Assembly: GCA_019115085.1 (NCBI GenBank)
Contig: DXEF01000065.1
Location: 1 to 32,463 of the forward strand
Source of the DNA: Candidatus Agathobaculum pullicola
Lineage (GTDB): Bacteria > Bacillota > Clostridia > Oscillospirales > Butyricicoccaceae
Direction of reading: 5' to 3'
Length of the DNA stretch: 32,463 bases
Position 1 is the stretch's first letter, and the number at the start of each line of letters is the position of its first letter. Shown one piece after another: positions 1,958 through 17,188 of the stretch. The notes under the pieces were generated by a model. The model searched no databases and was not told the origin of the DNA. It was given only the letters and a program-made list of their open reading frames with translations. The position numbers and the translations under genes are program-made.

Positions 1958-1986
1958 TCATATTTCCCGCCCCTTCTGCATAAAAA
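1958..1986 (+). promoter_or_regulatory. Possible sigma-E-like (mother-cell) promoter of asnB
   Basis: TCATATT (1958-1964) is followed after 14 nt by CATAAAAA (1979-1986). The Bacillus sigma-E pattern is roughly ATATT, 13-15 nt, CATACA-T, so the -35 and spacing fit well and the -10 fits partly. It lies 35-60 nt upstream of the asnB start. No good sigma-A promoter was seen in the 200 nt before asnB. A direct repeat TGGTATCCCA lies just upstream (1926-1935 and 1938-1947). This is inference from pattern only. Confidence 0.35.
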
Positions 1987-2020: not shown

Positions 2021-3439
2021 ATGTGTGGAATCGGCGGCTTTGTCGATTATGAACACGACGCGCGCCGCTACGCCGCAGCGGCAAAGCGCATGCAGCGCAG
2101 CCTGACGCCGCGCGGTCCGGACGCGGCGGGAGACTATCAGGACGCGGACGCAGTGCTCGTCCATCGGCGCCTTATCGTCATTGACCCGGATGGCGGCCAG
2201 CAGCCCATGTGCGCGCCCGACGAAAACACGGTGTTGGTATATAACGGAGAGTTATATAATACAGAAGAAATACGAAAAGACTTACTCGCACGCGGACACA
2301 CGTTCCGCGGCCATTCGGACACCGAGGTGCTGCTGCACGCCTTCCTTGAATGGGACACGGACGCTTTTGCGCGTCTCAACGGCATTTTTGCGTTCGCCAT
2401 CTGGCAGAAGAAAGAACGGCGGCTCGTGCTGTGCCGCGATCGTCTGGGTGTTAAGCCCCTGTTTGTCGCACACTTGCAGGACGGCATCGTATTTGGTTCA
2501 ACCGTCGGCGCGGTGCTGTGCCACCCGGCGGTCGAGCCTGAGGTAGACGAGGACGGCCTGCGCGCCGTGCTGCTGCTCGGTCCTGCGCGCCCACCCGCGT
2601 CCGGTGTATTCCGGCAGGTCGACTCACTGCTGCCCGGGCATTACGCGGTGCTCACACCCGAGGGCTACGCCGACCACACCTATTGGAAGCTGGAGGCACA
2701 TGAGCACACAGACGATCTAGAAACCACGATTGCACGCACACATGAGCTGATCTGCGACGCGGCGCAGCGGCAGCTGGTGTCCGATGTACCGCTTGCTTGT
2801 TTTCTGTCGGGCGGGCTGGATTCCTCCATCCTGTCCATGCTGGCCGCCAAGACATACGCCGCCCGCGGCGAAACACTGCACACCTGGTCGGTTGACTACC
2901 GCGACAACGACAAATACTTCACCAAAAACAGCTTTCAGCCCAACAGCGACAACGAATTCATTCAGATGATGGTCGATGCACTCGGTACAAAGCACCATAA
3001 TGTTGTCATCGAGCCGGACGCCCTATGCGCGGCGCTGCTGCCCGCGACCGACGCGCGCGACCTGCCCGGCATGGCGGACGTGGACTCCTCGCTGCTGCTG
3101 TTCTGCGCGGCAGTAAAACAAGGCGGCACGACCGTCTGCCTGTCCGGCGAGTGCGCCGACGAGTTGTTCGGCGGCTACCCATGGTACCACCGGGAGGAAA
3201 TCCTGTTTGAGGACACCTTCCCGTGGTCGCGCTCGGTTGACCTTCGGCTCGGCCTACTCGCGCCCGGTATCGTGCGGGATGGTGCGGAATTTGTCCGCGA
3301 GCACTATCTTGCCACCTGCTGCCGCGCGGAAAAGCTGCCCTCCGACAGCGCAAAAGACGCACGCATGCGCGAAATGTTCGTGCTCAATCTGGACTGGTTT
3401 ATGGCGACTTTGCTCGAAGGAAGCGTTGCAAGAAGATAG
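2021..3439 (+). CDS. asnB: Asparagine synthetase (glutamine-hydrolysing), 5' part of a gene split by an inserted element
   Basis: This enzyme family makes asparagine from aspartate, glutamine and ATP; relatives amidate diaminopimelate in peptidoglycan or act in sporulation (Bacillus AsnO). The start is ATG at 2021 behind AAGGAGG (2006-2012). It puts the catalytic cysteine at residue 2 (MCGIGGF), as the N-terminal glutaminase requires. The glutaminase domain covers about residues 1-210 (RRLIVID, YNGELYN, GHSDTEVLL, RDRLGVKPL). The ATP-pyrophosphatase domain carries SGGLDSS near residues 262-268 and SGECADELFGGYPWYH. The frame runs 472 codons, but residues after about 465 (EGSVARR, then stop) are not AsnB and come from the inserted element. 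The missing C-terminal 144 residues lie at 14846-15278. The fragment has no stop codons or frameshifts, so it does not look decayed. Confidence 0.93.
   Translation: MCGIGGFVDYEHDARRYAAAAKRMQRSLTPRGPDAAGDYQDADAVLVHRRLIVIDPDGGQQPMCAPDENTVLVYNGELYNTEEIRKDLLARGHTFRGHSDTEVLLHAFLEWDTDAFARLNGIFAFAIWQKKERRLVLCRDRLGVKPLFVAHLQDGIVFGSTVGAVLCHPAVEPEVDEDGLRAVLLLGPARPPASGVFRQVDSLLPGHYAVLTPEGYADHTYWKLEAHEHTDDLETTIARTHELICDAAQRQLVSDVPLACFLSGGLDSSILSMLAAKTYAARGETLHTWSVDYRDNDKYFTKNSFQPNSDNEFIQMMVDALGTKHHNVVIEPDALCAALLPATDARDLPGMADVDSSLLLFCAAVKQGGTTVCLSGECADELFGGYPWYHREEILFEDTFPWSRSVDLRLGLLAPGIVRDGAEFVREHYLATCCRAEKLPSDSAKDARMREMFVLNLDWFMATLLEGSVARR
3399..3438 (+). other. attL-like junction of the element inserted in asnB
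   Basis: The host arm (3399-3415) is followed by the proposed crossover dinucleotide GA (3416-3417) and the element arm (3418-3438). The element arm contains AGCGTTGCA (3422-3430) and GATA (3435-3438). These are reverse complements of TGCAACGCT (14831-14839) and TATC (14823-14826) at the other junction. AsnB homology stops exactly here: codon 466 reads GAA instead of the expected GAC. The recombinase gene starts about 300 nt inside, the usual place for an integrase next to its att site. Confidence 0.82.
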
Positions 3440-3544
3440 TTCATAATACACCGCAAATCCACCGTGCTTTCCCCTATTTTGGCCACAAAAACAACGCACC
3501 CCGGATCAGAACCACAGACGAGCAACAACAAAGGAGGCCCGCCA

Positions 3545-3658
3545 ATGATGACCACAACCGCCGCAGTAACTCCAAACGCCACCCTATCTCCGGGCGAATT
3601 GAAGGCCCAGATCGTGCGCATCCGACAGGGATTCGATCGTCCGCTGCCGACAAAATAG
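3545..3658 (+). CDS. Small protein of 37 residues between attL and the recombinase; unknown
   Basis: A short ORF starts at tandem ATG codons (3545 and 3548) behind a strong AAAGGAGG about 6 nt upstream. It encodes MMTTTAAVTPNATLSPGELK and ends ...IRQGFDRPLPTK at the TAG at 3656-3658. I do not recognise a family. The recombinase gene 56 nt downstream has the same AAAGGAGG(C) ribosome site, which suggests co-transcription. Its position beside the integrase would suit a recombination directionality factor or a leader peptide, but nothing in the sequence proves either. Confidence 0.5.
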   Translation: MMTTTAAVTPNATLSPGELKAQIVRIRQGFDRPLPTK

Positions 3659-3684
3659 GCTGGGCGGCAATCGCCGTCCCAGCC
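3658..3684 (+). promoter_or_regulatory. RNA hairpin between the small ORF and the recombinase
   Basis: GGCTGGG (3658-3664) pairs with CCCAGCC (3678-3684), and CGGC (3665-3668) pairs with GCCG (3673-3676), around an AATC loop with one bulged T. No T-run follows, so this is not a standard terminator. It could modulate or stabilise the recombinase message, whose ribosome site starts 17 nt downstream. Confidence 0.5.
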
Positions 3685-3714
3685 CCATGATACCATAGCA
3701 AAGGAGGCGCGCGA

Positions 3715-5274
3715 ATGGTCGCTATCTATACCCGTCAGTCCGTCGAACGGGCGGACAGCATCTCGGTTGAACAGCAGGCGCAGCTTTGCCGGGACGCACT
3801 GCCCGCAAGCGAAGCGCAGACCTGCAAAGTATACACCGACAAAGGCTTTTCCGGCAAAAATATCGACCGTCCAGCTCTCCAGCATCTGCTCACCGACGCG
3901 GAAGACGGGCAAGTCGAAAAAATCCTTGTGTATCGGCTCGACCGTATCAGTCGCTCGGTGCATGACTTCACCGGCCTATGCACCCGCTTGTCAGCGCGCG
4001 GTGTGCATTTTCAGTCGGTCACCGAGGGGATCACACTCGACAATACCCCATCGGGCACCGTGATGGCACAGATCATGATGGTGTTTGCACAGTTTGAACG
4101 CGAAACCATCCAGCGCCGTGTCACCGACAACTATTTTGCCCGCGCAAAGGCCGGCATGTACTTGGGTGGGCGTCCCCCTTTTGGATTTGACAAGGGCGAA
4201 ACGCTGGTCGACGGCAAGCGCACTGCCTGTTATATAGCCAATCCACAGCAGTCCGCGTTGATGGCCTCGCTTTATGAGCGCTACTTGCAGGACGGCGAGA
4301 CCCTTGGCTCGCTCGTGCGTTGGCTTAACGCAAATGGATACCGCACCGCACGCGGCGGCAGCTGGTCCTCGCTTCCGCTCGGCCGCCTGCTGCGCAATCC
4401 CGCGTTCGTGCGGGCAGACGCGGCGGTCTACCGCTATCTGCAAAACAAAGGCGCAAGCATGAACGATCCCATTACGGCCTACGACCAGCAGCACGGTTGC
4501 TACTGCTACGCACCTCTCCATTCCGTGCCGGCTGACAAGCGCCCGACCAAGCGCAAATTCACCAACCTGTCAGGCAGTTGTGTCACGCTTGCCCCGCATG
4601 AGGGCATTGTAGACGCCGCGCTCTGGCTGGATGCGCAGCACAAACTTGATTGCAACCGTGTCCTGAAAAGCAGCGGCGCCGGCTCTCACAGCTGGCTTTC
4701 TGGACTGATGAAATGCAAAAAATGCGGCTATGCCATCACAGTGGTCAACAAGCCCGCCGGGATGCGCGGCCATTATATCAATTGTGGCGGGCACAAGCGG
4801 GGCAATACCATCTGCCCGGGACGCAGCCAAGTGATTACACTTGAGGCGATCGAAGGCGCGGTCGAGATGAAGCTGCTCGATTTTCTAACAAGCTACCGAA
4901 CCGTGCAAATTCAATCGCGGCAGCGACACGGCGCGCAAGCAAATAAGCTGGAAATTGAGATCGATGCCCGCGAAAAGGAGATTGGACGGCTTCAGCAAAA
5001 TCTGACCCATATCCTTGAGCCGGATGTCATACATATCATCGCCGCGCAAATCCATGAGGCGAACGAGCAGTTGACCGCGCTCAAAACCCAGCGCGAGGCG
5101 CTGCTCTATCGGGAAAATCCCGCCGAACTGGAGCCATATTTTGAAGCTGTTCTAACCGAATGGTCCGGCTACACCATCGAGGAAAAAAAACGCATCGCCA
5201 AGGTCGTGATCGAACGGGTATGGGTGGGCGACGGCACCATCGAGGTATTGTTCCGTGCCGCATATGGCTCGTGA
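3715..5274 (+). CDS. Large serine recombinase (site-specific integrase/excisionase)
   Basis: The 519-residue product catalyses cutting and rejoining of att sites through a serine-DNA intermediate. The N-terminal resolvase domain (about 1-145) begins VAIYTRQSVERADSISVEQQ, with the catalytic serine expected at S9. It contains YRLDRISRS and the QFERE-IQRR helix. The central recombinase domain (about 150-300) includes GGRPPFGFDKG and the RGGSWSSLPLGRLLRNP segment. A zinc ribbon at about 335-375 shows CKKCG, then C, then CPG. A charged coiled coil (about 415-475) follows, then an IEEKKRIAKVVIERVWV tail. All parts of an active enzyme are present. The start at ATG 3715 is set by AAGGAGG at 3701-3707. 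It sits just inside attL and reads into the element, so it is the likely enzyme for integration into asnB and for excision. Confidence 0.95.
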   Translation: MVAIYTRQSVERADSISVEQQAQLCRDALPASEAQTCKVYTDKGFSGKNIDRPALQHLLTDAEDGQVEKILVYRLDRISRSVHDFTGLCTRLSARGVHFQSVTEGITLDNTPSGTVMAQIMMVFAQFERETIQRRVTDNYFARAKAGMYLGGRPPFGFDKGETLVDGKRTACYIANPQQSALMASLYERYLQDGETLGSLVRWLNANGYRTARGGSWSSLPLGRLLRNPAFVRADAAVYRYLQNKGASMNDPITAYDQQHGCYCYAPLHSVPADKRPTKRKFTNLSGSCVTLAPHEGIVDAALWLDAQHKLDCNRVLKSSGAGSHSWLSGLMKCKKCGYAITVVNKPAGMRGHYINCGGHKRGNTICPGRSQVITLEAIEGAVEMKLLDFLTSYRTVQIQSRQRHGAQANKLEIEIDAREKEIGRLQQNLTHILEPDVIHIIAAQIHEANEQLTALKTQREALLYRENPAELEPYFEAVLTEWSGYTIEEKKRIAKVVIERVWVGDGTIEVLFRAAYGS

Positions 5275-5302
5275 GAGGTATGCGCAACTGCGGAGAACTT
5301 GC

Positions 5303-5914
5303 CTATTCCTCCAAGGTATAGCCGTAGCCGAACAGAAAGTAGTTATAATCGGCTGTATCCGAAGTAAAGGAAAGCGGAACGGTCTCGCCTGCGGCCAGCG
5401 GCCCGACATAGGCGTTATGTACCTCCAGCGGCTCGTCCGGAATGGTGGCATCGTCCCCGTACTGCCGTGGGTTGTCCAGCTTGTAAAGCGAAATCTCCAG
5501 CTGAATCATACCGAAATCCACATCGGTCTGGTTGGTGAAGCTCCCGCTGTGCTCCCCCGCATATCCCCGGTTTATGCCGTCCGCCTTTTGGTAGGAAAAG
5601 GTGGTGTCATCCAAAATCCGGTTAAGCTCCTCGCGTATCGCCGCGTCAATATCCGGATTATCCCCCGGTCGATACAGCTCCTCCTCCGGAATCGGCATGT
5701 CTGTACTGTCTGTCGGCGCGGCGGCTTCTGCCTGCATCCCGTCTTTCGGCAATACCGCTTCCTGCGCCGTTTCTATCTGCGCGGACGGCGCCTTGCTTCC
5801 TTCGATCCATTTCGCCCAAAGCTGCGAAAACAACCCATAAAGGGAAAAGGCAATCAGCAAAATCCCGATAATTGTCAGCACAAACAAACTGCCGTTTTTG
5901 ACCCGTTCTTTCAT
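5303..5914 (-). CDS. Membrane-anchored extracytoplasmic protein of unknown function (FxLYD-like C-terminus)
   Basis: The probable product from ATG 5914 (MKERVKNGSLF) is 203 residues. One N-terminal membrane helix (about 10-30, FVLTIIGILLIAFSLYGLF) is followed by an acidic, Ala/Pro-rich linker (about 40-90). A C-terminal domain (about 110-203) has the pattern GSFTNQTDVDFGMIQLEISL, then LAAGETVPLSF, like small FxLYD-type beta domains. The ribosome site before 5914 is weak (GGAAAGTGG), so an upstream start to 5977 cannot be excluded. An extended -10 (TGATATAAT; TATAAT at 6012-6017, minus strand) lies about 100 nt upstream. The gene runs tail-to-tail with the recombinase, with a 28-nt gap. Its role in the element is unknown. 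Confidence 0.7.
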   Translation of the reverse strand: MKERVKNGSLFVLTIIGILLIAFSLYGLFSQLWAKWIEGSKAPSAQIETAQEAVLPKDGMQAEAAAPTDSTDMPIPEEELYRPGDNPDIDAAIREELNRILDDTTFSYQKADGINRGYAGEHSGSFTNQTDVDFGMIQLEISLYKLDNPRQYGDDATIPDEPLEVHNAYVGPLAAGETVPLSFTSDTADYNYFLFGYGYTLEE

Positions 5915-6200
5915 AGCACACCACTTTCCACACCATAAGCGGAACGCGAAAATGTTCCTCCCTGTATCATTTCCCATTTATACCGTTTTTTTCCTTATCT
6001 CTATATTGTGTATTATATCAAAGCCGCACAAAAATACCAGAGTAAATGAAGGATTATTTTTCTGTTTTCACCAATGGGAACGAGATGCTTACTGTGTGCC
6101 GACTGCAGCGCGATTCTATCCAAACGGCTGTGCGGTTGCTCGTGCTGCATGCAGGCTGCACGCTATACAGCGATAGCTTACCATGCTGCCGGACAGAAAA
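5915..6200. other. Non-coding interval between the membrane protein and mocA
   Basis: This stretch holds the extended -10 noted for the gene at 5303-5914 and little else. A plus-strand frame opens at 6046 (MKDYFSVFTNGNE) but has no ribosome site and runs on antisense to mocA and the Mo subunit. I do not call it a gene. Confidence 0.5.
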
Positions 6201-6201
6201 A

Positions 6202-6233
6202 GCCCGCCGCAGAAGTTCTTTTCTGCGGCGGGC
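6202..6233 (-). terminator. Terminator downstream of mocA
   Basis: GCCCGCCGCAGAA (6202-6214) and TTCTGCGGCGGGC (6221-6233) form a 13-bp GC-rich stem with a 6-nt loop. T-runs or A-runs lie on both sides, so it can work in both directions. It lies 6 nt past the mocA stop. Confidence 0.85.
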
Positions 6234-6238
6234 CTTTT

Positions 6239-6808
6239 TTATCCGTCAAGGTCACCTTCCGTGTCTACATCATATAGTTCCCGCTCACTGCCTGCCTGCA
6301 CCAGCACACAGTCCGCGCCGCGCAGCAGTTCCCGGCCACCCTCATCTCCCTCGAGCGCGCGCAAGGCGGGTGCCAGCGCCGCACAAAACAGGTTGGGATT
6401 GCCGCGCCGCTCTCCGAACACCACGCGCGCCATGCGCACACCGGGCGCGGCCGCGTTTAGCAGATGTGCAACCGTCTCCACGGTCAGGTACGGCTGGTCG
6501 GCCACGACGAACACCACAAAGTCACCGTCCTGCAAATCCAGTGCATCCAGCCCTGCGCGGATGGTGTAGGACAATCCCTTCTCGCTCTCCGGACTATCCA
6601 CCGCGCGCACGCCGTGCGACTCCGCGCCCGCACGCACTCCCGCATAGCGGGAAACCACGGTCAGCGTGCAGTCCTCCCGCTCGCGCACGAGTTGCGCCAG
6701 CATGTCCAGCCCGTGCCGATAGAGCGACTTGCCATCCAGCACATGCAGCAGCTTATTTTCCCCGAAACGCCGGCTATTGCCCGACGCTAAAAACAGAATA
6801 TGCTTCAT
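6239..6808 (-). CDS. MocA/MobA-like molybdenum cofactor nucleotidyltransferase
   Basis: The 189-residue nucleotidyltransferase probably transfers CMP (or GMP) to molybdopterin, making the dinucleotide cofactor used by xanthine dehydrogenase-type enzymes. The N-terminus ILFLASGNSRRFGENKLLHV is the glycine-rich nucleotide-binding signature of the family, with SGNSRRFG in place of the common AGxSxRFG. VFVVADQPYLT is the metal/nucleotide-binding DQP motif, and RRGNPNLF matches the GNPxLF motif. The start overlaps the end of the Mo-subunit gene by 4 nt (ATGA), so translation is coupled and the enzyme likely serves that hydroxylase. CTP versus GTP preference cannot be read with certainty, but xanthine dehydrogenases usually use the CMP form. 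Confidence 0.88.
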   Translation of the reverse strand: MKHILFLASGNSRRFGENKLLHVLDGKSLYRHGLDMLAQLVREREDCTLTVVSRYAGVRAGAESHGVRAVDSPESEKGLSYTIRAGLDALDLQDGDFVVFVVADQPYLTVETVAHLLNAAAPGVRMARVVFGERRGNPNLFCAALAPALRALEGDEGGRELLRGADCVLVQAGSERELYDVDTEGDLDG

Positions 6809-9105
6809 TCCTGTCCCTTCTGTATGCCCCAGAACACCTTTTCCGGCGTAATCGGCAGCTCACGGTGCCAAACGCCGGTTGCGTGCGCGATGGCATGCGC
6901 CAGCGCGGGCGACGGTGTGTTGATGACGATTTCACCAATCGACTTTGCGCCGAACGGGCCGCTCTGCTCATAGCTCGACTCAAATTCCACCCGCAGCTTG
7001 CCCATATCCAGCCGCGTCGGAATTTTGTACTGCATAAAGGAGTTTTCCGCGATGCGGCCGGTCGGCTCGTAGGTCACATCTTCAAACAGCGCCATGCCGA
7101 TGCCCTGCACCAGACCGCCCTCGGTCTGCACGCGGGCCAGCGCCGGATTGACCGGCGTGCCGCAGTCCACGACCGCGACATAATCCACTATGTCGACCTG
7201 TCCGGTTTCCTTGTCCAGCTCGATCTCGACCATACCGACCATAAACGGCGGCGGTGAGACAGGCGACGAATGGGAAGCGGTCGCCTGTACAGCGGTCTCG
7301 TTGCCGCACATCGATTTGGTCGCGATATCGAACAGAGAAACCTCGCCCGTGCCGTCGAGTTTTCTCACCACGCGGCCCGCAAATTCGACCTCGTCCGTGC
7401 CGCAGCCCAGCATGTCCGCCGCGACCTTGCAAAGATTTTCCTTCAGCTGCGCACACGCTTTTTCGACCGCCTTACCGGTGACATAGGTTGTCGAGGACGC
7501 ATACGAGCCGGAGTCATAGGGCGACGCGTCCGAATCCGCGCCGAATACCGCGATATCATCCACCGAGCAATCCAGACACTCGGCCGCCATCTGCGCCAAA
7601 ATGGTGTCACAGCCCGTACCCATATCCGCCGCGCCAATCGACAGATTATAGAAACCCTCATCGCTCAGCTTGATGGTGGCCGAGCCGACGTCCACGCCCG
7701 AAATGCCCGAGCCTTGCATCGCCATTGCCACGCCCGCGGTGCGCACCTTGCCGTTTCCCATATCGCGCACGGGATATTTCTCATCCCAGCCGAACAGCTC
7801 CTTGCAGCGCGCCATGCAGCGGTCGAGCGCACAGGCGTTTGCCTGCTCATTGTAATAGGCCGTCATGATCTGCCCTTCGCGCACCATGTTGCGCTCACGG
7901 ATGGCAACCGGGTCAATGCCCAATCGGTCGGCCAACTCGCTGACCGCGCTTTCCACCGCGAAAATGCCCTGCGTCGCGCCGTAGCCGCGGTACGCACCCG
8001 CCGCCTGTACGTTGGTGTACACCACATCATAGGCAAAGCGGAACGCCTCGAGGTTTCCGGTATAGAGCGGAATCGACTTGTGCCCGGACAGGCCGACCGT
8101 CGTCGGGCCGTGTTCTCCGAACGCGCCGGTATTGGACAGCGTATAAACGTCCATTGCACGGATAACGCCGTCCTTGTTGGCGCCGACACGCACATGCACT
8201 TCCATTTCGTGCCGCGGTGAGCCGGCAATCTGACATTCCTCGCGGGAATAGATCATCTTGGCCGCCTTGCCGGTTTTCCATGTCACCAGCGCGGGATACA
8301 CCTCAGCCACGACCGACTGCTTTGCGCCGAAGCCGCCGCCGATGCGCGGCTTTTCCACGTGGATCTTGCTTTTCGGAATATCCAGCGCGTTTGCAATGAT
8401 GCGGCGCACATGGAACACAATCTGCGTCGAGGAAATGATGTGCAGCCGTCCGTAATGGTCAATTTCGGTATAGGTGCGGAAGGTTTCCATCATCGCCTGC
8501 TGGCAGGCCTTGGTATGATAGGTGTGCTCAATCACCTCATCACAGTCGGCCAGCACCGCGTCCACGTCGCCGTCGCCGCAGGTTTCGCTGGCGCACAGGT
8601 TGCGCTGGTTGTCCGCACCGACCGGACAAAGCGCGCGCCAGTTGTCCTCGGGATGCACCAGTATTTTGTTATCCTTCGCCGTATGGAAATCAAGCACCGG
8701 CTCAAGCACCTGATATTTCACTTTGATGAGTTTTAACGCCTTATCAACCGCCTTTTCGGTTTCGCCCGCGACAATAGCCACCGCGTCTCCCACAAAACGC
8801 ACGCGCCGGTCGAGAATCAGCCGGTCATAAGGCGACGGCTCAGGGAAGGTCTGTCCCGCCATGGTAAACCGCTTCTGCGGCACATCCTTATAGGTGAAAA
8901 TGCACTCGATGCCCGGCACTTTGCGGGCAATGTCGGTGTTGATTTCCTCAATCAGCGCATGCGCATGCGGGGAGCGCAGCACTTTAACCACCAGACAGTC
9001 ATGCGGGGTCACGTCGTCCACATAGGCAGGCTTGCCCAGCAGCAGCTGCATTGCGTCCTTTTTGCGCACGGGCTTGTTCACCACGCGAAAATTCGTCTCC
9101 GCCAT
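6805..9105 (-). CDS. Xanthine dehydrogenase-type molybdenum hydroxylase, Mo-cofactor subunit
   Basis: This is the catalytic subunit of a three-gene xanthine dehydrogenase family enzyme, which hydroxylates purines such as hypoxanthine or xanthine with water as the oxygen source. The product is 766 residues from ATG 9105, where TGATG overlaps the Fe-S gene stop; a GTG at 9108 is the alternative start. The N-terminal domain (about 20-130) has GKPAYVDDV and SPHAHA. The Mo-binding part has RIGGGFGAKQ, GAYRGYGATQG, DMGTGCDTI, and near the C-terminus GAKSIGE, whose glutamate corresponds to the catalytic base. Gene order is FAD, Fe-S, Mo, mocA. Xanthine use is supported by the nearby xanthine permease and xpt. 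Another N-heterocycle, or a selenium-dependent form, is possible. Confidence 0.92.
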   Translation of the reverse strand: MAETNFRVVNKPVRKKDAMQLLLGKPAYVDDVTPHDCLVVKVLRSPHAHALIEEINTDIARKVPGIECIFTYKDVPQKRFTMAGQTFPEPSPYDRLILDRRVRFVGDAVAIVAGETEKAVDKALKLIKVKYQVLEPVLDFHTAKDNKILVHPEDNWRALCPVGADNQRNLCASETCGDGDVDAVLADCDEVIEHTYHTKACQQAMMETFRTYTEIDHYGRLHIISSTQIVFHVRRIIANALDIPKSKIHVEKPRIGGGFGAKQSVVAEVYPALVTWKTGKAAKMIYSREECQIAGSPRHEMEVHVRVGANKDGVIRAMDVYTLSNTGAFGEHGPTTVGLSGHKSIPLYTGNLEAFRFAYDVVYTNVQAAGAYRGYGATQGIFAVESAVSELADRLGIDPVAIRERNMVREGQIMTAYYNEQANACALDRCMARCKELFGWDEKYPVRDMGNGKVRTAGVAMAMQGSGISGVDVGSATIKLSDEGFYNLSIGAADMGTGCDTILAQMAAECLDCSVDDIAVFGADSDASPYDSGSYASSTTYVTGKAVEKACAQLKENLCKVAADMLGCGTDEVEFAGRVVRKLDGTGEVSLFDIATKSMCGNETAVQATASHSSPVSPPPFMVGMVEIELDKETGQVDIVDYVAVVDCGTPVNPALARVQTEGGLVQGIGMALFEDVTYEPTGRIAENSFMQYKIPTRLDMGKLRVEFESSYEQSGPFGAKSIGEIVINTPSPALAHAIAHATGVWHRELPITPEKVFWGIQKGQE

Positions 9106-9566
9106 CACGCATCCCCCTTTCGGCTGTCCAGATAGGCACGAATACCGCGCAGCTGGCCCTCATAGCCCGAGCAGCGGCACAGATTCCCTGCGAGGTAGGC
9201 GCGGATCTCATCGTCGGTCGGGTCGGGGTTCTCGCGCAGCAGCGCAATCGTATTCATTACAAAGCCGGGGTTGCAGAAGCCGCACTGCTCCGCGCCCTGA
9301 TCGGCGATAAAACCGACAAAATCCTCGGCCTCCTCCTGCAAACCCTCGAGCGTCTGCACATGGTGGCCCGCCGCGCGCGCGGCCAACACGCTGCACGAGA
9401 GCACGGGCGTGCCATCCAGCAGCACGGTGCACAGACCGCAGTTTGCGGTTTCGCAGCCGCGCTTGACCGAATAGCAGCCATGCGCGCGCACAAAGTCAAT
9501 CAGCAGCATATCCGCGTCGATTTCCGCGGTCAGTGGCTTGCCGTTGAGCGTCAGTTTGATTTCCAT
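9105..9566 (-). CDS. Xanthine dehydrogenase-type hydroxylase, [2Fe-2S] subunit
   Basis: The 153-residue electron-transfer subunit has two [2Fe-2S] clusters. The plant-type ferredoxin cluster ligands are in GCETANCGLCTVLLDG and the later SCSVLA cysteine. The second cluster is in QCGFCNPGFVMN and GNLCRCSGYEG, the usual CGFC...CRC pair. It passes electrons from the Mo centre to the FAD subunit. The stop overlaps the Mo-subunit start (TGATG), and the gap to the FAD gene is 3 nt, so the three subunits are translated together. Confidence 0.95.
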   Translation of the reverse strand: MEIKLTLNGKPLTAEIDADMLLIDFVRAHGCYSVKRGCETANCGLCTVLLDGTPVLSCSVLAARAAGHHVQTLEGLQEEAEDFVGFIADQGAEQCGFCNPGFVMNTIALLRENPDPTDDEIRAYLAGNLCRCSGYEGQLRGIRAYLDSRKGDA

Positions 9567-9569
9567 GCC

Positions 9570-10373
9570 TTATCCCTCCTTTGCCAGCGTCATCGCCGCC
9601 CGACGCACCAGCACCTTGCAGATTTCGCGCCGATAGTCCACACTGCCGCGCATATTGCCCGCGAGCGCCGCGCGGGACGCAACATCCTCTGCAAAGGCGC
9701 GCGCACTGTCCTCGGTGATGCCCTGCGCCAGCAAGCCTTTATCATCCGCGAATACGGCCGCGGGCATCGGCCGCGCGCCAATGGCACAGGTATATACCCC
9801 ATCCTGCGCGGCAAGCGCCACGGTCAGCACGGGAAAATCGGTCGAAATATTGCGCTGGGACAGGTACACAACCTGCCGTGCCGCCTTGGGTACGATGACC
9901 TCGGTCAGAATGTCGCGCGTCGTGCGCGGCAGCGCCGCGAAGTCGGAGAGCGACATTTCACCAGCGTGATGCAGCACGACCCGCGCATCCAGCGCCAGAA
10001 ACAGCGTCAGCACATCGGAAAAGCCGAATCGGCCCCACAGACTGCCGCCCAGTGTGGCACAGTTGCGAAACTGCACGCCGACGATATGCTTGACCGCCTG
10101 CTCCATTGCGCCCTGCGTGAGTTTGGCAAACCCTTCATGCAATTCCAGCGCGCGCAGCGGCACCATCGCGCCGATGCGGTATTCCGTTTCGGTTTCCTCG
10201 ATTTTATCTAGTCCCAAATCGCACAGGTCAATCGCCGTGCCGACCTGTCGTCGGTGCATCTTGAGCCACAGCATACCGCCCAGCACCACGTTATTTTTCT
10301 TTTGGCAAAGCGTGTATGCCTCGTCCAAGCTCTGCGCCCGTACATATTGATTGATCGAAAGCACCTTTCCCAT
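9570..10373 (-). CDS. Xanthine dehydrogenase-type hydroxylase, FAD subunit
   Basis: This is the FAD-binding subunit that hands electrons to NAD+ or another acceptor. The start is ATG 10373 (MGKVLSINQYVRAQSLDEAY), giving 267 residues, normal for a CoxM/XdhB-like protein. An in-frame extension to 10448 has no clear ribosome site. Family features are the N-terminal dinucleotide-binding segment (NNVVLGGMLWLKMH), NCATLGGSLWGRFGFSDVL in the middle, and the C-terminal CO-dehydrogenase-flavoprotein-like part with MRGSVDYRREICKVLVRRA. It is the first gene of the xdh operon, behind the promoter at 10488-10516. Confidence 0.92.
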   Translation of the reverse strand: MGKVLSINQYVRAQSLDEAYTLCQKKNNVVLGGMLWLKMHRRQVGTAIDLCDLGLDKIEETETEYRIGAMVPLRALELHEGFAKLTQGAMEQAVKHIVGVQFRNCATLGGSLWGRFGFSDVLTLFLALDARVVLHHAGEMSLSDFAALPRTTRDILTEVIVPKAARQVVYLSQRNISTDFPVLTVALAAQDGVYTCAIGARPMPAAVFADDKGLLAQGITEDSARAFAEDVASRAALAGNMRGSVDYRREICKVLVRRAAMTLAKEG

Positions 10374-10487
10374 CCTTCCGTCCTCATGTTCCCATATCCT
10401 GCCGCGCGGACACCGCTCATCAGCCGGTATCTTCCAAATCGCAGCCATCTTGCAGTCATACTCTGTTTTTCTGTCTGCTTCGCAGAC

Positions 10488-10516
10488 ATTATACCATAGA
10501 AAGCGGCTTTTCTAAA
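10488..10516 (-). promoter_or_regulatory. Promoter of the xdh-mocA operon
   Basis: Minus strand: TTTAGA (10511-10516), a 17-nt spacer and TATAAT (10488-10493) preceded by TGG, so an extended -10. Just downstream is the inverted repeat TGTCTGC-TTC-GCAGACA, which would fall at the transcription start and could be an operator. Confidence 0.7.
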
Positions 10517-10529
10517 GCGGTTTCCACTA

Positions 10530-10608
10530 TTTTTATACAGAAACCGTATTTGTATTTCCCCGCTTGACTTTAGTCCGAAACCGTACTATACTATAATCCG
10601 AATTCGGA
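10530..10608. promoter_or_regulatory. Candidate regulator-binding sites between xdh and marR
   Basis: The palindrome TCCGAATTCGGA (10597-10608) lies directly over and after the marR -10 element. A half site TAGTCCGAAACC starts at 10571 inside the same promoter. GAAACCGTA occurs twice (around 10547 and 10576), and an inverted GGTTTC copy lies near 10538. Such clusters suit a MarR-type dimer acting on its own promoter and possibly on the divergent xdh promoter. Binding is inferred. Confidence 0.55.
10564..10592 (+). promoter_or_regulatory. Promoter of marR-MATE
   Basis: TTGACT (10564-10569), a 17-nt spacer and TATACT (10587-10592). The start codon is 36 nt downstream and TATGGAGGAG supplies the ribosome site. 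Confidence 0.8.
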
Positions 10609-10627
10609 CTATGGAGGAGCGTATCCT

Positions 10628-11068
10628 ATGGAACTGCACGCCAAAATGGAGCAGCTCAACACCTGCATCTGCAAGATGACCGAGCTGTACCGCACCTGGG
10701 CCAAGCGGCACGGCATGAGCTATAATACCATGATGACGCTTTACGCACTGGGGCAGTCGCGCAAATGCACGCAAAAGCAGATTGCGGACGAGTGGCTCAT
10801 CCCCAAACAGACGGTCAATACGGTCATCAAGGAACTGGAACGGCTGGGCCATATCCGATTTGAGCCGTTGCCCGGCAGCAAGCAGAAGGTAGTCTGCCTG
10901 ACCGAATCCGGCCGCGCCTACGCCGACAGCTGCCTGCACGAGCTGTACGAGATGGAAGCGCGCGCGCTGTACTCGCTCGGGCAGCCGCTGACCGATATTT
11001 TTATTGCGTGCAATCTTGCCTTTGTGGAGCGGCTGGACGAGGAGGTGCGCGGTCATGCAGGAGAATAA
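10628..11068 (+). CDS. MarR-family transcriptional regulator
   Basis: The 146-residue protein has a winged-helix MarR domain. The recognition region is KQIADEWLIPKQTVNTVIKELERLGHI, and the wing is RFEPLPGSKQKVVCLTESGRAYAD. It probably represses its own promoter through the palindrome at 10597-10608 and may respond to a ligand of the transporter next to it. The 3' end overlaps the MATE gene by 14 nt, so the two are translationally coupled. It could also act on the divergent xdh operon, which would tie the element's regulator to purine use. Confidence 0.92.
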   Translation: MELHAKMEQLNTCICKMTELYRTWAKRHGMSYNTMMTLYALGQSRKCTQKQIADEWLIPKQTVNTVIKELERLGHIRFEPLPGSKQKVVCLTESGRAYADSCLHELYEMEARALYSLGQPLTDIFIACNLAFVERLDEEVRGHAGE

Positions 11069-12404
11069 CGCGCTGGCGCGGCAGTTCACCCTGCCCTCGC
11101 TGATGCGCTTTGCGCTGCCCAATATCATTATGATGGTTTTTCTCTCCATGTATACCATTGTGGACGGAATGTTTATCTCCCGTTATGTCGGTACGCTCGC
11201 GCTGAGCGCCGTCAACATGGTTTTCCCACTCAACTGTCTGGAAATGGCGCTGGGCATCATGCTCGCCACGGGCGGCAGCGCGATCATCGCGCGGCAGTTG
11301 GGCGAGGGCAAGGAAGGCAAAGCGCGGCACAACTTTTCGTTTCTGATCGCGGTATCGGTCGCAGTCAGCCTGATATTTTTGCTTGCCGCAATCTTTTTCC
11401 TCGACCCGATCATTTCCGCGCTCGGCGCGAGTGAAGCGCAGTTTGGCCTGTGCCGCACCTACGCGCGCATCCTGCTGCTGTTTTCGCCCGCGTTTTTCCT
11501 GCAAACCGCGTTTCAGACACTGTTCATTACGGCGGGCCGGCCCGGATTGGGTCTGGTGGCAACTGTGGGCGGCGGTCTGACCAATATCGTGCTCGATTAT
11601 GTGTTCATCGCGCGCTTTCACTGGGGCATCGCGGGCGCGGCGGTCGCCACCGGACTGGGCTACCTTGTACCCGCCGTGGTCGGACTGGTGTTTTTCGCCT
11701 GCAACCGGCGCGGCACGCTGTTCTTCGTCCGCCCACGCGCGGACGGACGCATGCTGCTGTTCGCCTGCGCCAACGGCTCGTCTGAAATGGTCACCAACAT
11801 CGCAAACGCCATCACGACTTACCTGTTCAACCTGATTTTCCTGCGCTACTGGGGCGAGGACGGCGTGGCGTCCATCACCATCGTTTTATATTTTCAGTTT
11901 GTGTTCACCGCCGTGTTTTTTGGCTTTTCAATGGGTGTCGCTCCGGTGTTCAGCTACAAATACGGCGCGCAGGACACGCCGCAGCTGCGGCAATTGTTCC
12001 GCTACTGCATCGGCTTTGTCATTTTGTGTTCGGTGTTCTGCACCGTGCTGTCGCTTCTCGTCATCCGGCCCTGTCTGGCGTTGTTCACCAATACGGACAG
12101 CCGTGTATTCTCCATCACGATGGAAGGCTTCCCACTCTATGCCGTCTCCTTCCTGTTCATGGGCGTGAGCATTTTTGCCTCCTCCCTGTTCACCGCCTTT
12201 TCAGACGGCCGCGTGTCAGCCATCATCTCTTTTGCCCGCACGCTGGTGTTTCTCGTCGGCATGCTGCTGCTTCTGCCGCTGCTGCTGGGCGAAATCGGCG
12301 TATGGCTGGCTGTTCCCTCGGCCGAGCTGCTCGGCATTGTGGTTTCCATCTGTTATCTGGTCCGCCTGCGCGGCGTGTATCATTACGGCGCGACAAACGG
12401 ATAG
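11055..12404 (+). CDS. MATE-family multidrug/Na+ antiporter
   Basis: The 449-residue polytopic membrane protein exports small organic molecules by cation antiport. The start is ATG 11055 (MQENNALARQFTLPSLMRFA), with GAGGAGGTG about 10 nt upstream inside marR; the longer frame to 11004 is only marR overlap. Typical MATE features are about 12 hydrophobic helices, YTIVDGMFISRYVGTLALSA in helix 1-2, and the glycine-rich MLATGGSAIIARQLGEGKEGKA loop, repeated loosely in the second half (FGFSMGVAPVFSYKYGAQD). The substrate is unknown; context suggests a purine-like or toxic compound, but MarR-MATE pairs are common without such a link. Confidence 0.92.
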   Translation: MQENNALARQFTLPSLMRFALPNIIMMVFLSMYTIVDGMFISRYVGTLALSAVNMVFPLNCLEMALGIMLATGGSAIIARQLGEGKEGKARHNFSFLIAVSVAVSLIFLLAAIFFLDPIISALGASEAQFGLCRTYARILLLFSPAFFLQTAFQTLFITAGRPGLGLVATVGGGLTNIVLDYVFIARFHWGIAGAAVATGLGYLVPAVVGLVFFACNRRGTLFFVRPRADGRMLLFACANGSSEMVTNIANAITTYLFNLIFLRYWGEDGVASITIVLYFQFVFTAVFFGFSMGVAPVFSYKYGAQDTPQLRQLFRYCIGFVILCSVFCTVLSLLVIRPCLALFTNTDSRVFSITMEGFPLYAVSFLFMGVSIFASSLFTAFSDGRVSAIISFARTLVFLVGMLLLLPLLLGEIGVWLAVPSAELLGIVVSICYLVRLRGVYHYGATNG

Positions 12405-12406
12405 AA

Positions 12407-12439
12407 AAAAGCTCCTTCGCATCAAGCGAAGGAGCTTTT
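12407..12439. terminator. Bidirectional terminator between MATE and permease genes
   Basis: AAAAGCTCCTTCGC (12407-12420) and GCGAAGGAGCTTTT (12426-12439) form a perfect 14-bp stem with an ATCAA loop, with A and T runs at the flanks. It serves two genes ending tail to tail. Confidence 0.88.
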
Positions 12440-12454
12440 GCATTTCACAAAACC

Positions 12455-13888
12455 TTAGTTATTTGCCGTTTTCTCCTTGGGCAGCAGAATATTCAGCACG
12501 ATAGCAACGAATGCCGCCGGAACAATGCCCGAACCGCCGAATACCAGCTGTACCGCCTGCGGCAGACCAGCCAGTACCGCAGCGTTCGCGCCAAGGCCGT
12601 AACCCAGGCCGAGTGCTACGGATACAATGGTCATGCTGCGCGCGGTCAGCGGCTCACGGGTGATGAGCTGGATGCCGCTCATGACAATCGAGGAGAACAT
12701 GATAACCGCCGCGCCGCCAAGCACGCTCTGCGGCATGATGGAAACCAGTGCCGCCAGCTTGGGGAACAGACCGCACAGGATGAGGAATACCGCGCCGCAC
12801 GCGAGCGCAAAGCGGTTGACCACCTTGGTCATCGTGACCAGGCCGACGTTCTGGCTGAACGAGGTGTTGGGCAGCACACCGAACACAGCGGCGAAGGAAG
12901 AACCGAGACCGTCGCAGATAATGCCGCCGGACAGCTCCTTATCGGTCGCCTCACGGCCCATGCCGCCTTCCATCACGCCCGAAATATCGCCCACGGTCTC
13001 GACCGCGGTGACGATGAACATAATCATAACAGGCGCAATCGCGCGCACATCAAACACAATCGGCACCGGCATGATCTCCGGCACAGCGAACCAGCTGGCC
13101 TGCGCCACCTTGTCCCAATTGAGCACCCACGCTTTGGTGTACTCCACGCCCTCGGCAGTCACGCCAGTGGGCGAGATAAACAGCGGCAGCACCGCGCACA
13201 GAATATAGCCGAAAACAATGCCCAGCAAAATACACGAATAGCTGAGAACGCCCTTGGTGAAATGCTTAAAGATCAAAATAACGACCAGCACCACCAGCGC
13301 GATCAGCAGATTTTCCACCGAACCGTAATCCTTCGCGCCCGAACCGCCGCCGAACGAGGCAACGCCCACGCTGATGAGTGACAGACCGATGGACAGTACG
13401 ACCGTACCGGTTACCACCGCGGGGAAAAACCGGCGCAGCGGCTTGAGGAAGAAGCCCAATACGCCCTCAAACAGACCGCCGATGATGGACGCGCCCATCA
13501 TCGCGCCGTAGGCGAGAATACCGCCGCCCATGACGTTGGCCACACTCTGGAACACGCCGATAAAGCCCGAGCTGGTGCCCATGATGATCGGCACCTTGCC
13601 GCCGATAGGACCGATAGCGAACAGCTGCACCAGCGTTACAATGCCTGCAATCAGCATCGCGTTCTGCAAAAGCGACACCTGAAGCGCCGCGAACCGCTCC
13701 GCGTCGCTCATCGCAGCGCATGCGCTCGTGATGATGAGGATGGGCGTTAAGTTACCCACAAACATTGCCAATACATGCTGAAGGCCCAGCGGAATCGCCT
13801 GTGCCAGCGGCAACTTGGCGTGAAAGTCGTACGGTCCGAAAAATTCTTTTTTCGTCGCCGCACCGTTTTGCTGCTTTTCTTTTTCCAT
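12455..13888 (-). CDS. NCS2-family xanthine/uracil permease
   Basis: This purine (probably xanthine or urate) importer of the nucleobase-cation-symport-2 family has about 12-14 membrane helices. The start is ATG 13888 (MEKEKQQNGAATKKEFF), set by GGGAGG at 13894-13899, giving 477 residues. The frame upstream to 13984 has no ribosome site. Family features are PLGLQHVLAMFVGNLTPILI at the first helices, VPIIMGTSSGFIG, the VGDISGVMEGGMGR segment that lines the substrate site in NCS2 proteins, and SIMPQSVLGGAAVIMF near the end. It lies between the xdh cluster and xpt and would supply their substrate. Confidence 0.9.
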   Translation of the reverse strand: MEKEKQQNGAATKKEFFGPYDFHAKLPLAQAIPLGLQHVLAMFVGNLTPILIITSACAAMSDAERFAALQVSLLQNAMLIAGIVTLVQLFAIGPIGGKVPIIMGTSSGFIGVFQSVANVMGGGILAYGAMMGASIIGGLFEGVLGFFLKPLRRFFPAVVTGTVVLSIGLSLISVGVASFGGGSGAKDYGSVENLLIALVVLVVILIFKHFTKGVLSYSCILLGIVFGYILCAVLPLFISPTGVTAEGVEYTKAWVLNWDKVAQASWFAVPEIMPVPIVFDVRAIAPVMIMFIVTAVETVGDISGVMEGGMGREATDKELSGGIICDGLGSSFAAVFGVLPNTSFSQNVGLVTMTKVVNRFALACGAVFLILCGLFPKLAALVSIMPQSVLGGAAVIMFSSIVMSGIQLITREPLTARSMTIVSVALGLGYGLGANAAVLAGLPQAVQLVFGGSGIVPAAFVAIVLNILLPKEKTANN

Positions 13889-13930
13889 TTTATCCTCCCT
13901 GCTTACCATTTTGTGTAATGAATCATTTTT

Positions 13931-13939
13931 ATTATAACA
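13931..13939 (-). promoter_or_regulatory. Extended -10 promoter of the permease gene
   Basis: The minus strand reads TGTTATAAT, a consensus extended -10, about 45 nt upstream of the start. No good -35 is visible. No purine riboswitch core was recognised in the leader. Confidence 0.55.
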
Positions 13940-14084
13940 AAAACAGGCGTACACTCCCACATGCTTTTGCTTTTTTTGCCACAAATTCGTATTTTCTACA
14001 AATAAGCCAACAGATCACACATCAAAGCGGCTTCTCTTGTCTTGTTTGACGCAAACCGCCGCTGCACCGCGTCCCCCGCAAAAG

Positions 14085-14113
14085 ACAAAACCGGCTGCAT
14101 CAGCCGGTTTTGT
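14085..14113. terminator. Terminator downstream of xpt
   Basis: ACAAAACCGGCTG (14085-14097) and CAGCCGGTTTTGT (14101-14113) form a perfect 13-bp stem with a 3-nt loop, just past the xpt stop on the minus strand. Confidence 0.85.
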
Positions 14114-14119
14114 GCGTCT

Positions 14120-14701
14120 TCAGTCGTCCCGGAAGCGCACGGTCTGGGTTTGGGCATCCATGCCGTCCACAATCGCCAGCGACTCGACGCGCAGGCCCTT
14201 TTCGCGCAGCATCTTACCGCCGCACTGGAAGCCCTTTTCAATTACGATGCCGATGCCCGCAACCTTGGCGTGCGCCGCCTCGATAATCTGGCACAGGCCC
14301 ATCGCCGCGCAGCCATTGGCGAGGAAATCATCGATGATGAGTACATTTTCGCCCGGCTGCAAAAAGCGGCTGGCCACAATGACCTCATACTTGCGCTTGT
14401 GCGTAAACGATTCGATCGGCGCGGACAGCATGGTGCCGTCCAGGTTAATCGACTGCGACTTTTTGGCGAACACCACCGATACGCCAAAATACTGCGCCAC
14501 AATCGCCGCGATGCCGATACCGGAGGCCTCGATGGTCAGGATTTTGTCGACCTTGACATCGGCAAACCGACGCTTGAATTCCTTGCCGATTTCGTTAAAC
14601 AGGTCAATATCCATCTGATGATTGAGGAAATTATCCACTTTCAGCACATTTCCCTCTTTAATCACGCCGTCTTTCCTGATTCGTTCTTTCAAAAGTTCCA
14701 T
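14120..14701 (-). CDS. xpt: Xanthine phosphoribosyltransferase
   Basis: The enzyme converts xanthine and PRPP to XMP for salvage. The start is ATG 14701 ([15 protein letters not shown]), giving 193 residues, close to the Bacillus enzyme; upstream in-frame residues are not family-like. The PRPP-binding loop is [11 protein letters not shown] at about residues 122-132, the Xpt form of the type I PRTase motif. [15 protein letters not shown] and [17 protein letters not shown] also match Xpt. It is the rightmost gene in the inserted element and reads leftward, away from the attR junction. With the permease and xdh genes it completes uptake, oxidation and salvage of xanthine. Confidence 0.95.
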
Positions 14702-14770
14702 GCTCTTGCTCTTCCTTGTCCGTTCATCCTCATAATTTCTTGTTAAAAGCATAGCATTTTTCGCGCGCGC

Positions 14771-14799
14771 TGTATACTTTTTTTCACAGGTTTTTTACA
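14771..14799 (-). promoter_or_regulatory. Possible promoter of xpt
   Basis: Minus strand: TGTAAA (14794-14799), 17 nt, TATACA (14771-14776). Each box has one or two mismatches. The leader of about 65 nt shows no purine riboswitch consensus. Confidence 0.35.
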
Positions 14800-14822
14800 C
14801 ATTTCTCATTTTGTCCGGTCGG

Positions 14823-14862
14823 TATCCTGCTGCAACGCTGCGCGACCGCAAGGACCGCATGA
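14823..14862 (+). other. attR-like junction of the element inserted in asnB
   Basis: The element arm (14823-14843, with TATC and TGCAACGCT) is followed by crossover dinucleotide GA (14844-14845) and the host arm (14846-14862). Joining the host arms at GA makes codon GAC and restores MATLLDRKDRMSM. On the excised circle the element arms face each other as an inverted repeat. Counting outward from GA, 15 of 21 positions match, including nine in a row. The rebuilt attB is also partly symmetric, with 10 of the first 17 positions matching. Confidence 0.82.
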
Positions 14863-15278
14863 GTATGTATTCCGGTTTGGAGGTGCGCGTGCCCTTCTGC
14901 GACCATCGCATCGTCGAATATGCCTACAACATGCCATGGGATTTCAAGGCGCTGGAGGGCCGGGAAAAGGGTATCGTGCGCCGCGCATTCGCGCACGAAC
15001 TGCCGGAGGAAATCGTCGTGCGCAAAAAAAGCCCCTATCCCAAGACCTTCCACCCGGCCTATACCCGCCTGTGCGCGGACTATGTCCGCCGCATCTTCGA
15101 GGACAGCGACTCCATTGCCGCGCATCTCTTTAACCATGCCGCCGTCGAGACGCTCATGGAAAAGCCGGAAAGTCTGGCCGAGCCGTGGTACGGTCAGCTC
15201 ATGCGCACCCCACAGATTTTCGCCTATATCATCCAAATCGACCGCTGGCTGCGGCAGTACAAGGTGCGGCTGGTGTGA
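14846..15278 (+). CDS. asnB: Asparagine synthetase, 3' part of the split gene
   Basis: This C-terminal fragment continues the gene at 2021-3417. It encodes DRKDRMSMYSGLEVRVPFC and on through DHRIVEYAYNMPW, EGREKGIVRRAFAHELPEEI, and KKSPYPKTFHPAY, all part of the AsnB synthetase domain that closes over the ATP and aspartate site. The frame is open from 14811 through element sequence, but there is no ribosome site, so in the present layout the fragment is probably not translated. Joined at the GA crossover, the full gene has 1830 nt including stop, or 609 residues, about the length of Bacillus AsnO. No decay is visible. Confidence 0.93.
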
Positions 15279-15760: not shown

Positions 15761-17188
15761 TTGCCCCAGTCCCCGGTGACCATCCCGGAAACCATCACGG
15801 TTCATCTGGGCACGCCCTCATCCGCCGCGCAGAATGTCACCGTCCCCTTTGCCGACTACATCAAAAACGTTGCCTCTTCGGAAATCTATCCAACCTGGCC
15901 CGAGGAGGCCATCCGCGCCAATATTTACGCGCAAATCTCCTATGCGCTCAACCGCGTGTTCACCGAATGGTACCGCGCGCAGGGCTATGATTTCGACATC
16001 ACCAACTCCACGCGCTTCGACCAATCCTTTGTCCCCGGGCGCGACATTTTCGAGAATATTTCCACCATTGTAGACGATATGTTCAACAGTTACCTCACCC
16101 GCGGCAACGCCATCGAGCCGCTGTTCGCCCAGTACTGCAACGGCACGACGGTGACCTGTCCCGGCGGCCTGAGCCAATGGGGAACGGTGCCGCTGGCCGA
16201 GCAGGGTATGACTGCGGAGGAAATTGTGCGATATTACTATGGAGACGACATCAACATTGTGCGAAACGCCCCAATTGCGCCCAACCTCGGCGGGTCGTGG
16301 CCGGGCGTGACCTTCCGGCTGGGCGATGTGTCCGAGGAGGTACGCACCATACAAAACCGCCTCAACCGTATCTCGACCAACTATCCCAATATCCCGAAAA
16401 TTTATCCGGTCGACGGCATCTACGACGCGGACACCGAGCGCGCGGTTCGCGCCTTCCAGAAGCAATTCAACCTTGGCGTGGACGGCATCGTCGGCCGCGC
16501 GACGTGGTACCGCATCGCGTTTATCTACAACAACGTCAAGCGCCTGAGCGAGCTGGACAGCGAGGGCCTTCTGCTCGAGGAAATTTCGCGCCAGTTCCCG
16601 GAAACGCTGCGCGAAGGCGCGACCGGTCCGGGCGTACAGCTACTTCAGTATTTCCTTGCGATTGTGGGCGAGTATTACGACCAGCTGCCGCGCTGGCAGC
16701 CCAGCCAGATCGACGGCATCTTCGGTCCGCGCACACGCGAAGCCGTCGAAGCGTATCAGCGCATGATGGGGCTGACCGTGGACGGTATTGTCGGCCGCAA
16801 CACATGGAACGCGCTAGTGTCTACCTATCAGTCCGTGCTGGCCGTACAACCCGATCAGGGCTTTTTGAGTGAGGTCGCCGGACTGCCGGATATCTTCCTC
16901 GTGGAAGGGATGCGCGGCGAGGCGGTGCGCGAGGCACAGGAGCTTATCAATACCATTGCGCGCGGCTATCCCGAGGTGCCTTCCGTCACGGTAGACGGTA
17001 TATTCGGTCCCGCGACACGAAACGCGGTTTCGGTCATCCAGTCGATATCCGGCCTGCCTGCTACCGGTGCAATCGGCCCGCTGACATGGGAGGAAATGGC
17101 CCTGCTTGCGCGCGACGTACTGGTGTCCTCGCAAACCAGCGAGGGACAATACCCGGGCTATCCGGTAGGAGAGGAGGCGACCGCCTGA
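15761..17188 (+). CDS. SpoIID-like domain fused to three peptidoglycan-binding domains
   Basis: The 475-residue protein starts at TTG 15761 behind GAGGAG. The N-terminal half resembles SpoIID/LytB, the lytic transglycosylase-type domain used in engulfment and spore cortex work. It shows VPFADYIKNVASSEIYPTWP with the glutamate where SpoIID has its catalytic residue. It also shows YCNGTTVTCPGGLSQWGT and MTAEEIVRYYYGDDI. Three peptidoglycan-binding type 1 repeats follow (about 185-265, 285-350 and 380-450), each with a VDGI(Y/F)...TR-AV--(Y/F)Q core. No signal peptide is seen, so it may act from the mother-cell side or in the spore coat. It ends in a TGATG overlap with the next gene. The spore role is inference from the domains. 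Confidence 0.85.
   Translation: MPQSPVTIPETITVHLGTPSSAAQNVTVPFADYIKNVASSEIYPTWPEEAIRANIYAQISYALNRVFTEWYRAQGYDFDITNSTRFDQSFVPGRDIFENISTIVDDMFNSYLTRGNAIEPLFAQYCNGTTVTCPGGLSQWGTVPLAEQGMTAEEIVRYYYGDDINIVRNAPIAPNLGGSWPGVTFRLGDVSEEVRTIQNRLNRISTNYPNIPKIYPVDGIYDADTERAVRAFQKQFNLGVDGIVGRATWYRIAFIYNNVKRLSELDSEGLLLEEISRQFPETLREGATGPGVQLLQYFLAIVGEYYDQLPRWQPSQIDGIFGPRTREAVEAYQRMMGLTVDGIVGRNTWNALVSTYQSVLAVQPDQGFLSEVAGLPDIFLVEGMRGEAVREAQELINTIARGYPEVPSVTVDGIFGPATRNAVSVIQSISGLPATGAIGPLTWEEMALLARDVLVSSQTSEGQYPGYPVGEEATA

Follow-up and report, generated by a model that had tools for sequence, protein, structure and literature searches.

A serine-recombinase element within codon 466 of an asparagine synthetase gene in Agathobaculum and its relatives, a candidate for excision during sporulation

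An asparagine synthetase gene (asnB) of Candidatus Agathobaculum pullicola is divided by an 11,428-bp element (3418-14845 of the window, the whole 32,463-nucleotide stretch of DNA analyzed here) that lies inside its codon 466. Integration by a serine recombinase at a GA dinucleotide of asnB is, on comparative grounds, close to certain. We consider it probable (roughly 0.72) that this is an intervening element of a sporulation gene, of the same kind as skin and gin, whose excision would restore asnB during sporulation.

Joining position 3417 to 14846 yields an in-frame asnB of 609 codons that starts at ATG 2021 and includes the conserved LLDRKDRMSM, as proposed in a preliminary description of the window. 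The 5′ half (2021-3417, forward strand; TIGR01536) holds 465 complete codons and the GA of codon 466 and encodes the amidotransferase domain together with the larger part of the synthetase domain; what is left of the latter is encoded by the 3′ half (14846-15278, forward strand) in 144 codons, including the shared one, followed by a stop. ATG 2021 has a ribosome-binding site and is the likely start; an alternative ATG at 1937 would give 637 codons and is positioned upstream of the promoter motif described below. A gene whose product is a peptidoglycan-binding protein, with a match to SpoIID and a partial one to SleB (15761-17188, forward strand), is located 3′ of asnB in split and unsplit genomes. 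The element is similar to its surroundings in G+C content, and Rfam and tRNA scans of the window gave no match.

The GA common to 3416-3417 (attL core) and 14844-14845 (attR core) had been correctly placed, as judged from the in-frame join, the junctions of relatives and the symmetry around it. On the circle, this GA is flanked by a left arm (14822-14843) and a right arm (3418-3439) that form the inverted repeat described earlier; the symmetry stands, at 15 of 22 positions (a value reached by 0 of 20,000 arm shuffles) instead of the 15 of 21 first given. The partial symmetry ascribed to the rebuilt attB is present in weak form only (11 of 22, shuffle P = 0.02). A short common core and an inverted-repeat attP are together characteristic of large-serine-recombinase elements. 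The recombinase gene starts 298 nt inside the left end, close to the 300 nt noted before.

The recombinase (3715-5274, forward strand, 519 aa) carries Resolvase, Recombinase and zinc-ribbon (Zn_ribbon_recom) domains in one protein, the composition of a large serine recombinase, and matches the integrase family phrog_95. Its sequence relatives by NCBIfam are XisF of the fdxN element and CcrA/B/C of SCC, far under the curated cut-offs, which we read as homology and not as membership. An IMG/VR scan returned no close relative of the recombinase; a single IMG/VR match to the circle-junction pattern was rejected, as by eye it lacks the outer arms and appears to be due to chance. Directly 5′ of the recombinase is a 37-aa ORF with a ribosome-binding site (3545-3658, forward strand). 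This tiny ORF is clearly present in 11 of 16 genomes and more loosely in G010; strict clustering recovers it in 10 of 17 element pieces. It adjoins the recombinase even in elements in which the two are 16.5 and 23.7 kb away from the left end. Its 22-codon core has dN < dS in all 42 pairs that give a dS (45 pairs in all). The product is the best candidate for a recombination directionality factor, and perhaps acts as one.

The remainder of the element is largely a metabolic module. A hypothetical protein without a Pfam or PHROG match, encoded by the same gene in related elements (5303-5977, reverse strand), is followed on the reverse strand by a molybdenum cofactor cytidylyltransferase-like protein (MocA; 6239-6808, under the curated cut-off), a xanthine dehydrogenase-type molybdenum subunit (xdh; 6805-9108, under the equivalog cut-offs) and, by domain and family matches, a 2Fe-2S subunit (9105-9566) and an FAD-binding subunit (9570-10448). 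A MATE family transporter (11004-12404, forward strand, by family matches) precedes an NCS2 family permease, probably for xanthine (12455-13984, reverse strand; above the NCS2 and below the pbuX cut-off) and xanthine phosphoribosyltransferase (xpt; 14120-14752, reverse strand, above cut-off). Of the larger genes in the window's element, nine in all, none is a capsid, portal, tail or terminase gene of the sort that marks a prophage, and no relaxase or transfer gene was found in this element. A separate observation comes from six other elements (88 ORFs, 37 PHROG families): among the matches listed (25 of the 37), "major tail protein" appears for three ORFs (best E = 6.9e-21).

An uninterrupted asnB in relatives was a test set beforehand. 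Nine of the 25 genomes of the genus have one, with LLDRKDRMSM running across the predicted join (all nine at the protein level, seven with the DNA inspected), and 16 are split at codon 466. The earlier claim of precise integration by a large serine recombinase is borne out by these empty sites, by the 16 splits at the same place and by an orthologous recombinase whose identified carriers are all split. The junction falls at the same GA in all 13 genomes that are readable on both sides (those of G006 and G011 are readable on one side only). Both ends are on one contig in 11 genus genomes, with inserts of 10,756 to 43,555 bp. Across the 87 genomes of the family, 50 have an asnB match at 1e-40, of which 28 are classed as unsplit and 22 as split, the latter including three one-half genomes (G006, G011 and G106); the six split genomes outside the genus represent four other genera.

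Relatives of the recombinase are found mostly in Agathobaculum, family Butyricicoccaceae. An ortholog (at least 53% identity) is present in at least 16 of the 87 family genomes, all of them split, with misses possible as in some genomes the best 17 of more candidates were scored. Among the candidates scored, no ortholog was found in six split genomes: G006, G024 and G106, which have broken contigs, and G068, G069 and G075, in which other recombinases, 31-38% identical to that of the window, sit at a split of the same codon. The 3′ half of G069 is in the opposite orientation near a contig end, either an inversion or a misassembly.

Across these 13 genomes of the genus, between 14 and 20 of the 22 positions around GA are symmetric at the circle junction (the mean is 17.5, versus 6.3 for shuffles, s.d. 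0.6), and no comparable symmetry occurs at neighboring centers in these genomes. Outside the genus, symmetry about GA is seen in G069 (14/18, P = 0.0004) and G075 (9/18, P = 0.04) and not in G068 (4/18). When G064 and G082 are added to the 13, the two arms of one genome match at 17.3 positions, compared with 15.6 for arms taken from different genomes; 0 of 20,000 permutations, which leave shared ancestry in, were as high. Such own-pair matching likely means either that attP pairs have been replaced as a whole or that selection favors binding of the recombinase.

Both halves of asnB are undamaged in the window, as originally described. Within the genus the 5′ half is readable in 15 cases, one being a contig fragment of 126 codons, and the 3′ half on 16 contigs (two from G016); all of these are open as far as the predicted codon. 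The halves beside the other recombinases in G068, G069 and G075 are also open, with 465 and 142 codons. The exception is L063, whose 3′ half is interrupted ten codons from its beginning by an in-frame stop, either real or an assembly error; L063 apart, the halves remain able to form a working gene over evolution, as is the case for skin-like elements. In 11 split pairs dN/dS is 0.04-0.14 for the 5′ half and 0.01-0.13 for the 3′ half, and in four unsplit pairs 0.10-0.27 and 0.03-0.32 for the corresponding parts; the pairs overlap and several enclose nested unsplit species, so that for some of the time compared the gene may have been unsplit. By these comparisons both halves of the split gene are under strong purifying selection.

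Conservation of both halves is also expected if they are made as two polypeptides that assemble into an enzyme, as selection would then act without excision, and a ribosome-binding-like sequence indeed precedes internal ATGs at the start of the 3′ half on 15 of 16 contigs. However, that sequence encodes the conserved RKDRM and is therefore expected anyway; the open frame leading into the 3′ half offers a start codon equipped with such a site on 0 of 16 contigs, and unsplit relatives exist. We regard a two-polypeptide enzyme as very improbable. A recent or defective insertion in the course of decay would account for the stop in L063 and for the frameshifted recombinase of G010, but the other halves are open, the other 15 recombinases were matched without stops and the att arms are still symmetric, which leaves decay with hardly any credence.

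The gene that these halves would restore is preceded by a promoter motif suggestive of sporulation. A sigmaE-type motif, CATATT-N14-GCATAA, is positioned at 1959-1983 (forward strand) upstream of asnB; we take it to resemble the sigmaE consensus. The strict motif occurs 62-71 nt 5′ of the asnB start in 23 of 26 genomes, split or unsplit (0.10 expected by shuffling), with the strict pattern missing in G001, G032 and G035, and it is kept on asnB in 13 of the 14 split genomes examined. As a control, 0 of 82 upstream regions of nine neighboring or cargo genes contain it. A search of four genomes gave eight exact matches to the motif versus three to the reversed pattern. Two of the eight are those of asnB, one has a long ORF 195 nt downstream, four have no such ORF after them, and one is located 30 nt upstream of an M23-type gene; the next gene encodes a membrane protein with HEGGH and LDGG motifs, and by eye the pair is probably spoIVFA-spoIVFB. 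The intended positive control, spoIVA, has the motif in 0 of 20 upstream regions; coding sequence lies directly upstream of it. Of the 25 genus genomes, 20 have SpoIVA itself and 23 a SigE-like factor (the latter in no case above the curated cut-off of its model), and the window's own assembly (82% complete) has no SpoIVA or SigE-like match at the cut-offs used.

An asparagine synthetase gene tied to sporulation is described in Bacillus subtilis. In the consulted excerpts of the reports, asnO belongs to the mother-cell genes controlled by sigmaE, sigmaK and SpoIIID, and an asnO mutant is one of three that do not sporulate like the wild type (PMC517825); asnO is described as expressed in sporulation only (PMC2311275). 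It is a possible counterpart of this asnB. The promoter motif and the selection data strengthen the earlier hint of a link to sporulation.

We compared the divergence of the recombinase with that of its host gene. In G002, G004 and G014, whose recombinases form one clade, recombinase dS is 0.50-0.59 (dN 0.04-0.05) and asnB dS is 0.44-0.49; among the neighboring genes, dS is 0.37-0.46 for unsplit PG15.7 and only 0.12-0.14 for acd. As the recombinase has diverged as much as asnB, the split would be as old as these species, and element and host gene appear to have descended together. The recombinase itself, with its low dN, is under purifying selection; over that time an idle gene should have drifted. 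For an old split we rely on the recombinase dS and not on the equality of xdh dS and asnB dS. A match to xdh is present in 21 of the 25 genus genomes: 10 have it inside the element and 10 outside, among the latter two deep-branching split species, G001 and G010, while its position in G011 is undecided. In a gene that is genus-wide and also found outside the element, such equality proves little. The xdh tree recovers several host groupings, G015+G023, G003+G017 and G018 plus the G000 group, and does not recover G019 or G008.

Exchange is evident elsewhere in the genus. The G000 recombinase differs from those of its sisters G002 and G014 by a dS of 1.1-1.3, far above the asnB dS of 0.5, which indicates that the recombinase was exchanged there. 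The recombinase data also reject three groupings of the asnB tree (AU p = 1.6e-5, 2.7e-7 and 0.001), a conflict which implies that modules move between species. Such mobility suits an ordinary integrative island that uses asnB as its attachment site, leaves its carriers without this asnB and excises rarely, for transfer, with no developmental role. The scatter of unsplit genomes in the tree fits an island as well, and so does the lack of a consistent sporulation promoter in the elements: across 16 elements, no strict sigmaE motif was found 5′ of the recombinase or the tiny ORF. (Scattered motif matches in the elements were not used; the sole shared one is inside the recombinase gene of G000 and G016.) An island is harder to reconcile with G002, G004 and G014, where element and asnB have co-diverged and yet the halves keep a low dN/dS and their exact length, or with the promoter motif retained on split asnB genes, and we judge it unlikely.

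The asnB tree requires five changes of state, with the unsplit G005 and G023 nested among split species. In G005 the cargo is located elsewhere in circular order with the element ends fused; ~47-60 bp of the attP region have been lost at the fusion, and neither the tiny ORF nor the recombinase is present. G023 likewise has its cargo at another location, with the recombinase absent and the left part inverted. The uninterrupted asnB and relocated cargo of these two genomes support a past precise removal of the element, and the simplest account of their history would be that the element was excised, inserted at a different position and lost its recombinase.

If the element is excised in sporulation, as we favor, the recombinase alone would integrate it and a second factor would be needed for excision, as reported, in the excerpts drawn on here, for skinCd, SP-beta and gin (PMC5025042, PMC5595907). 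In the mother cell the recombinase and a directionality factor, perhaps the 37-aa protein, would recombine attL with attR, releasing the element as a circle and making asnB whole again at the time when the sporulation sigma factor is active. The forespore would retain the element, so that the next generation inherits it. The dying mother cell has no descendants, and an element lost in that cell alone can house ordinary vegetative genes, here a module for xanthine use. We infer, in line with the preliminary description, that the integration is reversible by excision. A broader reading, which we put forward tentatively and at less than even odds, is that one codon of a mother-cell asparagine synthetase gene serves as a recurrent dock for programmed-excision elements, a split at the same GA in another genus being flanked by recombinases that are only 31-38% identical to that of the window, and that the element serves as an address for genus-wide metabolic genes. 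Each sporulation would then delete xanthine metabolism from the mother cell while turning asparagine synthesis on, and in a lineage that abandons the arrangement the circle would re-enter elsewhere and shed its recombinase.

Interrupted sporulation genes named in the cited literature, as excerpted, are sigK, spsM, spoVFB, gerE and yabG, and the comparisons below are confined to the same excerpts. The gin element of Bacillus cereus ATCC10987 (PMC5595907) resembles the element in asnB in its serine recombinase, its lack of phage genes, its need for a second factor and its splitting of a mother-cell gene that is later rejoined. It differs in occupying another gene, gerE, in another class of bacteria, in having three recombinases instead of one and in carrying mostly genes without known relatives in place of a metabolic module; its excision has been shown, whereas that of the element in asnB is predicted. 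The skinCd element in sigK of Clostridioides difficile (PMC5025042) is likewise clostridial with a serine recombinase, and its excision needs a small factor, CD1234 (72 aa), under sigmaE and SpoIIID; such a promoter was not found for the tiny ORF here, and skinCd is described as prophage-like, unlike the present element. SP-beta in spsM of B. subtilis restores a spore gene by precise excision in sporulation, but is an active phage (PMC4191935, PMC5595907). The yin element in yabG (PMC10747680) also has its recombinase adjoining the 5′ half and forms a circle on excision; it is prophage-like and comes from one isolate, in contrast to the many species with an element in asnB.

A literature search by title and abstract opening, mainly of open-access papers and without bioRxiv, found no element in an asparagine synthetase gene. 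The kind of element is already known; the novelty, as far as these searches reach, lies in the target gene, the metabolic cargo, the spread within a family and the presence of other recombinases at the same GA. If excision occurs as proposed, this metabolic gene would offer a way to study, in common gut bacteria, how and why such elements are kept: it is split in many species, its recombinases are exchangeable, losses have occurred naturally and the att sites are readable. It would also follow that many genomes are annotated with a broken copy of a conserved gene that may be intact in those cells that need it.

Candidate splits that end near the same codon were also seen beyond the family. In an order-wide search of 297 genomes, G301 and G129, from two other families, are among the matches listed and were excluded from the counts above; G301 has no 3′ half at the cut-off, and the candidate 3′ half of G129 is on another contig.

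The asnB gene is interrupted at the same GA core in another genus of the family, in genomes G068 (loci L141/L142), G069 (L143) and G075 (L144/L145), where the split gene is adjoined by a different serine recombinase encoded on the strand opposite asnB. In two families other than that of the window, asnB stops near the codon at which the window copy is split and is followed by unrelated sequence (G301, L182, near 5592; G129, L183, near 4308). The single-contig genome G010 carries a frameshift in the element's recombinase (L048 14972-16511), and its asnB remains split despite this damage.

We also observed the xanthine-use module outside asnB in two unsplit genomes, G005 (L164 9397-18791) and G023 (L166 4464-17545). 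Both relocated modules lack the recombinase and the 37-aa ORF just upstream of it, and at L164 the two element ends are fused to each other. In G009, likewise unsplit, the module (L173 262-9588) directly adjoins ppic, ugdh and sat, the usual downstream neighbours of asnB. Elsewhere in the window, a 2122-aa protein (23392-29760) is, judged by eye, a putative secreted hexosaminidase-like enzyme.
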